Shown piece by piece: positions 2,804 through 12,767 of a stretch of 26,438 bases of DNA. Source of the stretch: a virus; IMG/VR virus record IMGVR_UViG_3300033155_000271, positions 1-26,438 of that record; one strand, 5' to 3'. Numbering within the stretch: position 1 is the stretch's first letter; each line of letters opens with the position of its first letter. The notes under the pieces were generated by a model. It saw only the letters and a program-made list of their open reading frames with translations. It was not told where the DNA came from and ran no database searches. The position numbers and the translations under genes were made by a program.

Positions 2804-3214
2804 ATGAGTATGAACTTCTACTTAAAAAGCCCTACTGAGGGTGAGCTACTTAAGCGTTACCCTGATGAGAACATGAGACTTAATGACATGTATCCTAACC
2901 TGGGTGACTACTTCAACGACATGTCAGAATCTGAACATAAAGAGTCAGGACACTTCTACACACAAGACAAAGGCTGGTGCCAAACTGAGTCAACTGTCCC
3001 TACTGTCAATATGTCAAACAGTAACTTCCGATACGTCCTGAACGAGATACTTGGTCTGGACACTTCTGAGTACTGTGGTGACTTGGAAGACCTTCAACTG
3101 GCTCGTGCTAGTCTGATGTTACACAGCACTCCCAACTGTTACTATGGCATAACAGAAACCTTAAAACTAATTGAGCTGGCTATCGAGAACGATTGGTCAG
3201 TATACTTTGCATAA
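2804..3214 (+). CDS. Hypothetical protein
   Basis: 136 residues from ATG 2804, chosen because TTGGAGGG sits at ideal spacing; an in-frame ATG at 2789 lies upstream of that RBS. The protein is acidic and soluble, with several Asp/Glu/Tyr-rich stretches (NLGDYFNDMSESEHKESG). No recognised motif. It lies in the same transcription unit as the HTH gene downstream. Confidence 0.7.
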   Translation: MSMNFYLKSPTEGELLKRYPDENMRLNDMYPNLGDYFNDMSESEHKESGHFYTQDKGWCQTESTVPTVNMSNSNFRYVLNEILGLDTSEYCGDLEDLQLARASLMLHSTPNCYYGITETLKLIELAIENDWSVYFA

Positions 3215-3226
3215 CTGGAGAAACCT

Positions 3227-3739
3227 ATGGCTACACAAAAAGAAAACATTAAAGCACACTTAGTCGGTGGCAGTAAGATTACACCCATCATTGCAATGAC
3301 TGACTTTGGCTGTATGCGATTAGCTGCTGTTATATTCACACTACGTGAAGATGGTCTGGACATCAGTACTAACAACATAACACGCAATGGTAAGACCTTT
3401 GCACAGTACTCCTTGATAACAAAGAAGCCAGTGAAAGAAATGACACTGCTATCGAGAACACCAAGCACTGGCTATGAGAACAAAGAGTTTAATGTATGCT
3501 TGTGTGTGACAGTTACACAGGATTTAATAAACAGTCCAGAAGAACAAGACGGTCCTATATTCATACGCCTTAGTGAAGATGACACCCTGGAACTCACAGT
3601 AAAATGTCTTCCTGATGAAGGCATCTGTCACTACCTTCTTATTGATGGTAAAGAAGTGCAAGTACTGTCCGGTGCATTTAAGTGGGTGAATAGCTACTTA
3701 GGTGACAAGACTGGTTCAATGACAATCAGTTACGAGTAA
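3227..3739 (+). CDS. Protein with N-terminal helix-turn-helix domain
   Basis: 170 residues, RBS ctggagaaacct. Residues about 5-65 match the phage winged helix-turn-helix family with the plan 'k.i..hL..g..ITp..A...fGc.RLaa.I..LR.eG..I' (here GGSKITPIIAMTDFGCMRLA, then FTLREDGLDISTN and a basic wing). This family is common in phages as a presumed DNA binder. The C-terminal ~100 residues (VCLCVTVTQDLINSPEEQDG and onward) form an extra, unrecognised beta-rich domain not usual for the family. It may regulate early phage transcription, but no operator can be pointed to. It is the last gene before the non-coding stretch 3740-4028. Confidence 0.7.
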   Translation: MATQKENIKAHLVGGSKITPIIAMTDFGCMRLAAVIFTLREDGLDISTNNITRNGKTFAQYSLITKKPVKEMTLLSRTPSTGYENKEFNVCLCVTVTQDLINSPEEQDGPIFIRLSEDDTLELTVKCLPDEGICHYLLIDGKEVQVLSGAFKWVNSYLGDKTGSMTISYE

Positions 3740-3746
3740 GAATTAT

Positions 3747-3904
3747 GTGGTCGTAAGCAGATGGAAAAGCTGTGCGGTTAGTAGCCGTATGCTGTCACAA
3801 TAATGGCCTGTACGATACATGTTAGTCAGCGAGTGAGTTCGCTACTCACCTGACACAGGCAGATGATGACAGAATCGGGGGTTCGAGTCCCTCCGACTTC
3901 AGCA
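3747..3904 (+). ncRNA. tRNA-like RNA with an 87-nt structured variable arm
   Basis: All tRNA landmarks occur in order. The acceptor is 3747-3753 with 3894-3900 (six of seven pairs, one G-U, one T-T mismatch). T8 A9 follow. The D-arm is AGC/GCT with loop AGATGGAAAA containing GG. The anticodon arm is TGCGG/CCGTA (3773-3777, 3785-3789) with 7-nt loop TTAGTAG, giving U33, A37 and anticodon AGT (Thr). The T-arm is 3877-3893 with loop TTCGAGT. The 3' end is A-GCA, not CCA. The variable region (3790-3876) is 87 nt and folds on itself: CTGTCA/TGACAG, GCCTGT/ACAGGC, GTCAG/CTGAC, GTGAG/CTCAC, 22 Watson-Crick pairs. Normal variable arms are 4-24 nt. A CCA-adding-type nucleotidyltransferase gene begins 125 bp downstream. 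Confidence 0.6.
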
Positions 3905-3982
3905 CACAGTGTAGCTACTTAGTAGTGAACAACGAGGCGACTGTACGCGCCTACAACCTTGGAAACTTGGAGAGACTGTGTG
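3903..3982 (+). ncRNA. Branched stem-loop domain downstream of the tRNA-like RNA
   Basis: CACACAGT (3903-3910) pairs perfectly with ACTGTGTG (3975-3982). Inside are CTAC/GTAG (3915-3925) and AGGCG/CGCCT (3935-3952) hairpins and a weak third arm. The span is tRNA-sized but has no T-loop signature. It may be the 3' part of the same RNA or the leader of the nucleotidyltransferase gene. An 8-bp pair at this distance could arise by chance, so confidence is modest. Confidence 0.3.
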
Positions 3983-4028
3983 GTACAACATAAATCATTA
4001 TACATATTAATCTAGGAGGAGCACCCTA

Positions 4029-4595
4029 ATGTTACAACATGAGAACCAGCAGGTCAAAGATTTGCTATGCTATATGAGTGACCTAGGCTTTGACTTTGAA
4101 GTTCTTGGTGGCTACCCACGAGACTTACACTTCGGTCGTACTCCTAGAGACATGGATGTATGCTGTTGGAACTGTAAACCAGAAACAGTCCTATGGAGAA
4201 ACCGGTACGTTAAACTATTGGCATATTTACAAGAAACTGGTCTGTACAAGAGCGACTTTGCTGTAGGTAGCGAGTACCCTTCAGACCGAATCTTTGGAGG
4301 TCTAAGGACAACTGTTGATGTTGACATCATCTTCTGGGTAGAGAATTTTAATTCCGCAGAAGCTATTCTAGGCTGGTTTGACTACAATATTAACCAGTTC
4401 CGTTTAGTACGTGACGAGTACACCGGAGTAACTGCTGGAGCACCTTGGGAACACATGTTCAACTATGGACGATTGAAACAGTTACGTGAGACAGAGCTAT
4501 CTGAAGTACGTATAAAGAACACACTCAAGTTAGCTAAAGATGTCGGCTGGCTAGAGAAATCTACAATATCATACCCTTGGGGTGGAGTACAATAA
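4029..4595 (+). CDS. CCA-adding / poly(A)-polymerase-head nucleotidyltransferase
   Basis: 188 residues with a very strong RBS (AGGAGGAG). Residues 25-44 carry the signature of the tRNA nucleotidyltransferase/poly(A) polymerase head domain: GG at 27-28, RD at 31-32, G36, then the metal-binding D41-x-D43. A third carboxylate candidate lies in the strand TTVDVDIIF (D97/D99). The family transfers NMPs to RNA ends (CCA to tRNA 3' ends). This protein has the head but is far shorter than cellular enzymes (about 400 residues), so the neck/tail tRNA-binding domains are absent or minimal. Related short proteins are annotated in many phages with unproven substrates. The tRNA-like RNA just upstream, whose 3' end lacks CCA, is a natural candidate substrate (inference). 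The stop overlaps the next ATG. Confidence 0.7.
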   Translation: MLQHENQQVKDLLCYMSDLGFDFEVLGGYPRDLHFGRTPRDMDVCCWNCKPETVLWRNRYVKLLAYLQETGLYKSDFAVGSEYPSDRIFGGLRTTVDVDIIFWVENFNSAEAILGWFDYNINQFRLVRDEYTGVTAGAPWEHMFNYGRLKQLRETELSEVRIKNTLKLAKDVGWLEKSTISYPWGGVQ

Positions 4596-4888
4596 TGAAC
4601 GGTAAGAAAGCTAAGATGCTACGTAAGTTAGCAGGTCCGAAAATGGACACACAATACACTGAAACAAATGTTCGTGGTAAGTTCATGAACACAAGTGCCA
4701 TTATTGACGCTAGAGGTAACCCAGTACTTGATGATGAAGGTAACGAAACCTTTAACCGAGTCACTTGGCGTACCAGTACTACAATGATGGGTGCAGGTAC
4801 TCGCATGGTATACAAAGTTCTGAAGAACATATACCACAACCGTACTCGTGACATGCACGTTAACATTCACACACCTGTTGGAGCATAA
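4595..4888 (+). CDS. Conserved-looking phage hypothetical protein
   Basis: 97 residues from ATG 4595, which overlaps the preceding stop (TAATG) and follows GGGGTGGAG. A TTG start six codons earlier lies within the RBS and is rejected. The N-terminus is basic (MNGKKAKMLRKLAG). The rest includes GNPVLDDEGNETFNRVTWRT and ends THTPVGA-like. The basic helix followed by a Tyr/Arg-rich body looks like a small nucleic-acid-associated protein, but I cannot name a family. It is probably co-transcribed with the nucleotidyltransferase. Confidence 0.7.
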   Translation: MNGKKAKMLRKLAGPKMDTQYTETNVRGKFMNTSAIIDARGNPVLDDEGNETFNRVTWRTSTTMMGAGTRMVYKVLKNIYHNRTRDMHVNIHTPVGA

Positions 4889-4889
4889 T

Positions 4890-5102
4890 ATGTTTTTCAA
4901 GAAATCTGTAAAGAAAGCTACAAAGAAATTCCGTTCACTGCGTAGTGACCTGACTCAAGTTATTAGCCAGGAAGCAACAGTGCAGCGTGACCTTAATAAA
5001 GAAATTGTTAAGGTTAAAGTTAAGCTTAATGTATCTCAAAACGAGATGGAAGAAGCTCAAGCAATTCTGTCGAACGTAAATGCGTTCCTCGGTAAGAAGT
5101 AA
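4890..5102 (+). CDS. Small lysine-rich coiled-coil-like protein
   Basis: 70 residues from ATG 4890, with TTGGAG upstream; a longer in-frame ORF starts inside the previous gene and is less likely. The first 20 residues are very basic (FFKKSVKKATKKFRSL). Residues about 25-65 are a heptad-like amphipathic helix (EATVQRDLNKEIVKVKVKLN, then NEMEEAQAILSNVNAFLGKK). The family is unknown; oligomerisation through the helix is likely. It is the last confident gene before the gene-poor stretch 5103-6009. Confidence 0.65.
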   Translation: MFFKKSVKKATKKFRSLRSDLTQVISQEATVQRDLNKEIVKVKVKLNVSQNEMEEAQAILSNVNAFLGKK

Positions 5103-12046: not shown

Positions 12047-12231
12047 GACCTATAGCAACACCGATGTACAAAGGGTACGTCAAAATGTTCTTGGATACTA
12101 TTTTCAATGAACACCCATGCGACGATTTTGTAACTGCGTACATAAAGAAGAAACCTGGAGTTAACTACAGCACTGCTGAGGTTAAGTGGAAAATTCTAAA
12201 TGCAGCTTACGAGGAGTTTAAATTAAAATGA
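12043..12231 (+). CDS. Hypothetical small protein
   Basis: 62 residues between ATGA overlaps with primase-helicase and RNA ligase. Soluble and basic at its end (AAYEEFKLK), with KKKPGVNYSTAEVKWKILNA suggesting a small helical domain. No family is recognised. Likely co-translated with its neighbours. Confidence 0.6.
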   Translation: MRPIATPMYKGYVKMFLDTIFNEHPCDDFVTAYIKKKPGVNYSTAEVKWKILNAAYEEFKLK

Positions 12232-12767
12232 GTAATGTAGAGTTTAAGGCTTGGCCTAAGATTTATCGAGATAGTCCTTTCAACGTAACTATTACTGAAA
12301 AGATTAACGGCACTAACTCTTGTATCATCATTGAAGATGGCAAGATAGTAGGTGTCCAATCTCGTAAGCGTTTCATTACACCTGAAGATGACAATTATGG
12401 TTTCGCAGGTTGGGTACAACGTAACAACGATGAGCTGGAAACACTTGGTGATGGCTATCACTATGGCGAGTGGGCTGGCCTTGGTATCCAGAGTAATGAA
12501 CTTAACTTACCAGAGAAACAACTGTTCCTGTTTAACACCTTCCGGTGGAATGCAGAGAACCCTAACTTGCCATCTTGTTGCAAGGTTGTACCTATACTGT
12601 TCCAGGGATTAATATTGCCTGACACAATATCAGATATGCTGCAAGAGATGGACAAGGCTACGGATGTAATTCATGAAGGTGTCATTGTATACTATCATGC
12701 TATGCGTAGTTACTCAAAACATACAATCAAGCTACCGAAAGGTAAATGGGCTTGGCAGGAAGATTAA
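12228..12767 (+). CDS. RNA ligase (adenylyltransferase core, Rnl2-like)
   Basis: 179 residues in an ATGA overlap with the previous gene. It shows the ordered motifs of covalent nucleotidyltransferase ligases: motif I EKINGTN with nucleophile K25, then SRKRFI, motif III-type YHYGEWAGLGIQ and LFNTF, motif IV HEGVIVYY, and motif V HTIKLPKGKW. K-x-NGTN is more typical of RNA ligases than of DNA ligases (K-x-DG-x-R), and a separate DNA ligase is encoded at 22335. The short length means only the catalytic domain is present, without an OB or C-terminal domain. Phage RNA ligases repair tRNAs cut by host defence nucleases. Together with the CCA-adding-type enzyme it suggests RNA repair. Confidence 0.85.
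   Translation: MSNVEFKAWPKIYRDSPFNVTITEKINGTNSCIIIEDGKIVGVQSRKRFITPEDDNYGFAGWVQRNNDELETLGDGYHYGEWAGLGIQSNELNLPEKQLFLFNTFRWNAENPNLPSCCKVVPILFQGLILPDTISDMLQEMDKATDVIHEGVIVYYHAMRSYSKHTIKLPKGKWAWQED

Follow-up and report, generated by a model that had tools for sequence, protein, structure and literature searches.

The DNA analyzed here (the window) is a 26-kb virus record of 26,438 nucleotides. Its genes include those for a single-subunit RNA polymerase, a primase/helicase, a DNA polymerase, a ribonucleotide reductase, an RNA ligase, and a lysozyme, and its DNA polymerase shares 47-48% identity with the enzymes of Zobellviridae phages such as Salinivibrio phage CW02 and Pseudomonas phage GP100. 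The RNA ligase gene (12228-12767, PF09414) could supply an RNA repair enzyme in the same phage. A cloverleaf-like RNA element at 3747-3904 lies between a winged-helix gene (3227-3739) and a gene for a nucleotidyltransferase. The latter protein is assigned to PHROG 1614 (E = 2e-22), and its motif is similar to the catalytic one of CCA-adding and poly(A) polymerases. Its structure model, built from two sequences, has low confidence (pLDDT 55) and gives a weak structure match, which supports only a polymerase-beta type core.

The element was compared with its counterpart in L001, a syntenic IMG/VR contig whose nucleotidyltransferase is 75% identical in protein sequence. Protein-based scans recovered only L001/L003 and L004, the last of which ends short of this part of the genome, and the plasmids searched gave no match; the clear homologues number two, the window and L001. 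The features of the locus, all on the plus strand, are as follows.

3737-3746, plus strand: leader TAAGAATTAT, identical in L001
3747-3753, plus strand: 5' strand of the acceptor stem, GUGGUCG, with a U2.U71 mismatch and G3.U70
3754-3755, plus strand: U8-A9, kept in L001
3756-3771, plus strand: D arm AGC/GCU, 3 bp, with a 10-nt loop containing GG; two of three pairs doubly changed in L001
3773-3789, plus strand: anticodon arm UGCGG-UUAGUAG-CCGUA, 5 bp; four of five pairs doubly changed in L001, loop variable
3790-3876, plus strand: giant variable arm, 87 nt, between the anticodon and T arms
3792-3797 and 3867-3872, plus strand: stem a, CUGUCA/UGACAG; five of six pairs doubly changed in L001
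3806-3811 and 3855-3860, plus strand: stem b, GCCUGU/ACAGGC; four of six pairs doubly changed in L001
3815-3824, plus strand: single-stranded motif AUACAUGUUA, on the 5' side of a bulge and immediately 5' of the apical hairpin; unchanged in L001
3825-3854, plus strand: apical stems GUCAG/CUGAC and GUGAGU/ACUCAC, from folding
3877-3893, plus strand: canonical T arm GGGGG-UUCGAGU-CCCUC, from the Rfam fit and the L001 comparison
3894-3901, plus strand: 3' strand of the acceptor stem, CGACUUC, followed by A73 at 3901
3895-3987, plus strand: 93-nt stretch identical in the window and L001, starting in the 3' acceptor strand and continuing into the domain that follows
4029-4595, plus strand: nucleotidyltransferase of the polymerase-beta superfamily, 188 amino acids, motif GGYPRDLHFGRTPRDMD

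The acceptor stem has seven positions, of which six are paired (3747-3753 with 3894-3900; in order G-C, U.U, G.U, G-C, U-A, C-G, and G-C). Together with U8, the D arm, and a T loop of the UUCRA type, this gives the core of a tRNA. An initial annotation of this DNA had listed U8, the GG of the D loop, U33, A37, the T loop, and a 7-nt anticodon loop as tRNA landmarks separated by an 87-nt insertion, and all of these features and their coordinates proved correct. Likewise, the arm does have four stems (6, 6, 5, and 6 pairs), although they total about 23 pairs rather than the 22 originally counted.

Standard searches pass over this RNA. ARAGORN calls neither a tRNA nor a tmRNA in the window, and an Rfam search of the whole window with E values up to 1 returned no match at the locus. 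When a search was focused on 301 bases, the Rfam tRNA model spanned the interval, including the insert, at 22.6 bits (E = 0.016) compared to a gathering score of 29, and no known Rfam family scored above its gathering threshold for the element. Covariance models, which the initial annotation had proposed as a check, thus fit a tRNA below the gathering score and returned nothing for tmRNA. The folding energy of the window copy (z = -1.5) is weak evidence taken alone. Nevertheless, the tRNA-like element at 3747-3904 is confirmed, and the comparison with L001 is what decides the matter.

The element in L001 is 153 nt long and also precedes the nucleotidyltransferase gene. Its helix sequences differ from those of the window, whereas its plan is the same. 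In a position-by-position alignment, 31 of the 32 helix positions form standard pairs in both sequences, and the sole exception is the U.U at 2-71, which is present in both. Eighteen pairs are changed on both sides, one is changed on one side, and 12 are unchanged. Shuffling L001 20,000 times never gave as many as 31 pairs, and 14 pairs carry double changes even in an uncorrected MAFFT alignment. The D arm, the anticodon arm, stems a and b, and the T arm all covary, and in the acceptor stem G7-C66 of the window is replaced by A7-U66. Both RNAs begin stem a at position 46 and place a 4-nt linker before the T arm. Furthermore, the L001 sequence, when folded independently, adopts the same cloverleaf (z = -2.2), with a weak stem adjoining the AUACAUGUUA motif. 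The single-stranded parts that are unchanged between the two RNAs are U8-A9, the start of the T loop, A73, and AUACAUGUUA.

Covariation in relatives had been put forward as a check, and it is found in the cloverleaf and the arm alike. Because all helices are kept through 18 double compensatory changes, this comparison of two sequences establishes that the RNA structure is under selection. It also shows, for this pair, that the giant arm preserves its architecture and not the sequences of its helices. A decaying tRNA gene or a functionless chance fold would be compatible with the unexceptional folding energy of the window copy, but no pair was lost among the 32 while 18 were compensated, and the invariance of the motif and of the downstream stretch calls for selection. 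We consider this explanation strongly disfavored and barely tenable.

The initial annotation had offered an inserted RNA domain, a tRNA mimic, or an intron in the variable region as possible readings. The covariation with L001 supports a tRNA-like RNA with an inserted domain, possibly a mimic put to another use. Regarding the intron, reading the sequences suggests that if stem a and everything inside it were excised, the variable loop would be 6 nt long in the window and in L001 alike, and splicing would thus yield a class I tRNA. However, there is no conserved sequence of the splice-site type, the conserved element of the arm is instead a single-stranded motif, and the anticodon loop of L001 would still have 6 nt. 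Phage introns of such a size and position are not known to us, and we judge this explanation to be very improbable.

The two RNAs also differ in the anticodon loop: the window has the 7-nt UUAGUAG and L001 the 6-nt UUGAGU. The anticodon AGT had been highlighted as unusual for bacteria, but AGU has no meaning here, as the loop of the relative is shorter and of another sequence. An ordinary tRNA-Thr with anticodon AGU and an oversized variable arm might be proposed from the 7-nt loop with U33 in the window, and also from the canonical anticodon loop (UUU) of L023, an RNA described below. The conserved 7-nt loop of a decoding tRNA is nonetheless missing from the pair: the 6-nt loop of L001 has no matching anticodon, the U2.U71 mismatch occurs in both RNAs, no CCA is encoded, and ARAGORN rejects both as tRNAs. 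Because the loops differ in length and sequence, decoding is unlikely. A decoding tRNA would be expected to keep its loop length and anticodon rather than a motif in its arm, and therefore a non-decoding RNA is favored. From these sequences, the element probably does not decode, and an ordinary tRNA-Thr is highly unlikely.

A second conserved part of the locus was missed by the initial annotation. No identical run shared by the two genomes is longer than the one at 3895-3987 (the runner-up has 60 nt), and 42 bases separate its end from the start codon of the nucleotidyltransferase gene. A closed domain is predicted from position 3903, formed by P1 (CACACAGU at 3903-3910 with ACUGUGUG at 3975-3982), which encloses two good predicted hairpins (3914-3926 and 3935-3952) and a weak third. 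In addition, the loop UGUAC at 3942-3946 could pair with GUACA at 3983-3987, after P1. Because nothing varies in this region between the window and L001, the pairing inside the domain is a prediction only, and its folding energy is unremarkable (z = -0.6). The 3' end had been described as A-GCA. Its A73 stands, but the GCA is unlikely to be a variant of CCA, since its “CA” is the start of predicted P1, and it is better read as part of this next helix. When IMG/VR was searched with an exact pattern from the invariant stretch, only L001 and one coding coincidence in another phage were found, and a spaced pattern recovered L001 only.

Two other sequences were noted. The candidate promoter ATACAT(A/G)TTA(A/G)TC has two sites in the window and was rejected, as neither is repeated elsewhere. 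Repeats of the type GGCTTTCTTGGT follow hairpins at 772 and 1334 in the window and at 4354 and 8211 in L001, and are apparently the standard terminator of this phage group.

To look beyond the pair, IMG/VR was scanned for ATACATGTTA followed 38-66 nt later by a T loop, which gave 27 stretches, many of them matching by chance. Several were rejected as ends of protein genes before ordinary tRNAs. L028 was rejected with its motif inside a stem, L031 as a permuted tmRNA, and L030 and L048 for want of a convincing cloverleaf. One unrelated phage contig, L023, carries a tRNA-Lys-like RNA with anticodon UUU, a canonical D arm and anticodon loop, an encoded ACCA, and a variable region of about 73 nt. 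Here, AUACAUGUUA is again placed on the 5' side of a bulge, immediately before the apical hairpin and inside an enclosing stem; this placement is a model, and the unconstrained minimum-energy fold of the arm differs in detail. The same arrangement arose in 478 of 100,000 shuffles of the L023 arm. Directly after its ACCA, a predicted stem encloses three hairpins (z = -1.2), a resemblance to the predicted downstream domain of the window that is suggestive only. Thus, tRNA arms, a giant arm, and the motif before an apical hairpin occur together in the window, L001, and L023. We regard L023 as a probable third member, connected through architecture rather than overall sequence, with the motif having been part of the search query. 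The same motif pattern gave 24 matches in about 85,000 prokaryote genomes, none of which is inside a giant variable arm.

Oversized tRNA-like RNAs are also present in other phages. A scan of the examined loci for long tRNA-likes gave 40 candidates compared to a mean of 2.7 in shuffled sequences, a count to which tRNA arrays contribute through pairing of neighboring genes. Unannotated tRNA-likes of ~155 nt occur in GP100 (L020, LT986460.2; at 4076-4230, within the noted interval 4057-4250) and cyanophage S-CRM01 (L085, NC_015569.1, about 1495-1655). The two are homologous over about 145 nt (73 nt at 79.5% identity), and they covary in a hairpin (GTCGG/CCGAC versus TCAAG/CTTGA) and in their T stems; in GP100, a leader and trailer lengthen the acceptor to about 20 pairs. 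GP100 is a Zobellviridae podovirus and S-CRM01 a cyanomyovirus, and the tRNA-like is common to both. GP100 was rejected as a carrier of the motif (it has ATATCATGTT) since the S-CRM01 homologue lacks it, which makes this a separate tRNA-like. GP100 also has, at L020:2034-2106, a tRNA with anticodon TTA (stop codon UAA), possibly a suppressor tRNA.

The tRNA arrays of Ounavirinae contain a conserved tRNA-like of ~127 nt that is unannotated in most records (L042:4741-4864 of phage SUSP1 and relatives). Its loop is ATACATGTTA or ATACGCGTTA, and the retained palindromic center would suit loop-loop dimerization. Another locus, L043, encodes four tRNA-like paralogues on the minus strand (around 2222-2366, 2676-2817, 2960-3022, and 4829-4924) that share a 25-nt repeat, TTGTTGTAGTTAAGAGTTACTTCAA, shortly 5' of the T arm, as though a single inserted domain had passed from one tRNA gene to others. 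Because all of these RNAs lack the sequence of the window element, we treat them as parallels and not as members.

The reading we favor, with a probability of roughly 60%, is that the element is a phage-encoded, non-decoding tRNA mimic whose scaffold supports a giant arm displaying AUACAUGUUA. The elbow formed by the acceptor, T, and D arms would allow tRNA-handling enzymes (RNase P, 3' processing, and possibly CCA addition) to excise a stable RNA. G3.U70 together with A73 are determinants for alanyl-tRNA synthetase, which the element would therefore suit. The giant arm would then present AUACAUGUUA to a partner, either a protein or another RNA.

The most likely use for such an RNA, although we hold it with somewhat less than even confidence, is that of a trans-acting decoy that occupies or misdirects a putative host factor that handles or attacks tRNA. 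This is favored because similar arms occur in L023 and GP100, where no nucleotidyltransferase gene adjoins the element. It is also favored because defense nucleases that cut the variable loop of tRNA-Tyr, and phage tRNAs that counteract such systems, are known (PMC13096335).

The invariant stretch and the conserved linkage with the gene downstream point to a role in cis as well. The main rival, which we consider possible but rather unlikely, is that the tRNA-like and the invariant stretch form the 5' untranslated region of the nucleotidyltransferase operon. The RNA might then be a processing site (“tRNA punctuation”), or an operator bound by the nucleotidyltransferase for self-regulation, by analogy with thrS and ThrRS. 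The element stays with the downstream gene in both genomes, whereas the upstream gene differs and similarity starts only at the leader; in L001, a terminator-like hairpin ends immediately 5' of this leader. Moreover, no stretch of the two genomes is more conserved than the one separating the tRNA-like from the start codon, and the encoded protein is similar to CCA-adding and poly(A) polymerases in its catalytic motif. Against this proposal, the tRNA-likes of L023 and GP100 have no such neighbor, the linkage is conserved in two genomes only, and the protein structure match is weak.

Returning to the mimic, a broader and more speculative proposal, which we consider rather unlikely, is that unrelated phages carry a class of such non-decoding RNAs. 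The tRNA core would serve as their chassis, and the giant arm with AUACAUGUUA would do the work, through a trans effect on a host factor involved in handling or attacking tRNA. In the window, this unit would be fused to a second, nearly invariant RNA domain.

Several known RNAs share features with the element. Class II tRNAs (Leu, Ser, and Tyr) likewise have a cloverleaf with a stem in the variable region, but their arms are roughly 10-24 nt, whereas the window has 87 nt with an internal bulge, a conserved motif, and an anticodon that is not conserved. The tmRNA SsrA also combines a tRNA-like acceptor and T arm, G3.U70, A73, and a large extra RNA part. The window differs in having an anticodon-like arm and a 3-bp D arm. 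Neither ARAGORN nor Rfam matched a tmRNA here, and a conserved tag reading frame was not found: from the AUG in the arm, the window stops after five codons while L001 is open. HDV-like theta ribozymes adjoin phage tRNAs (PMC10879173) and so resemble the window in placing a structured RNA beside a phage tRNA-like. Rfam models gave no ribozyme match downstream of the tRNA-like at E values up to 10, and on inspection the nested double pseudoknot order of HDV-like ribozymes is absent from the predicted domain.

In Escherichia coli, the thrS mRNA leader is an operator bound by ThrRS, with a tRNA-like fold before a gene of tRNA metabolism. The window presents a comparable order, a tRNA-like fold preceding a gene for a possible tRNA-metabolism protein. 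It differs from the thrS operator in that its tRNA core is nearly complete and carries a giant arm.

The closest known analogue is T4 species 1 RNA (rnaC, or RNA C; species 2 is rnaD). This late RNA of unknown function has been confirmed by northern blot (PMC9697503). Like the RNA proposed for the window, rnaC is a small, non-decoding phage RNA of similar size (139 nt, stable), and a canonical T arm lies close to its 3' end. Unlike the window element, rnaC is located in a tRNA cluster, has no clear 7-bp acceptor or D arm, and shows neither AUACAUGUUA nor the invariant downstream stretch; no alignment between the two reached the reporting score. The two stable RNAs of T4 have been without a function for decades. 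The oversized tRNA-likes of other phages that are backed by covariation are selected, recurrent, and missed by tRNA callers, and a class of fake tRNAs that has drawn little notice may be in use among phages. For the window element, the conserved motif and the invariant neighboring domain make function testable, and the outcome could be a phage strategy against tRNA-targeting defense or a new mode of phage gene regulation.
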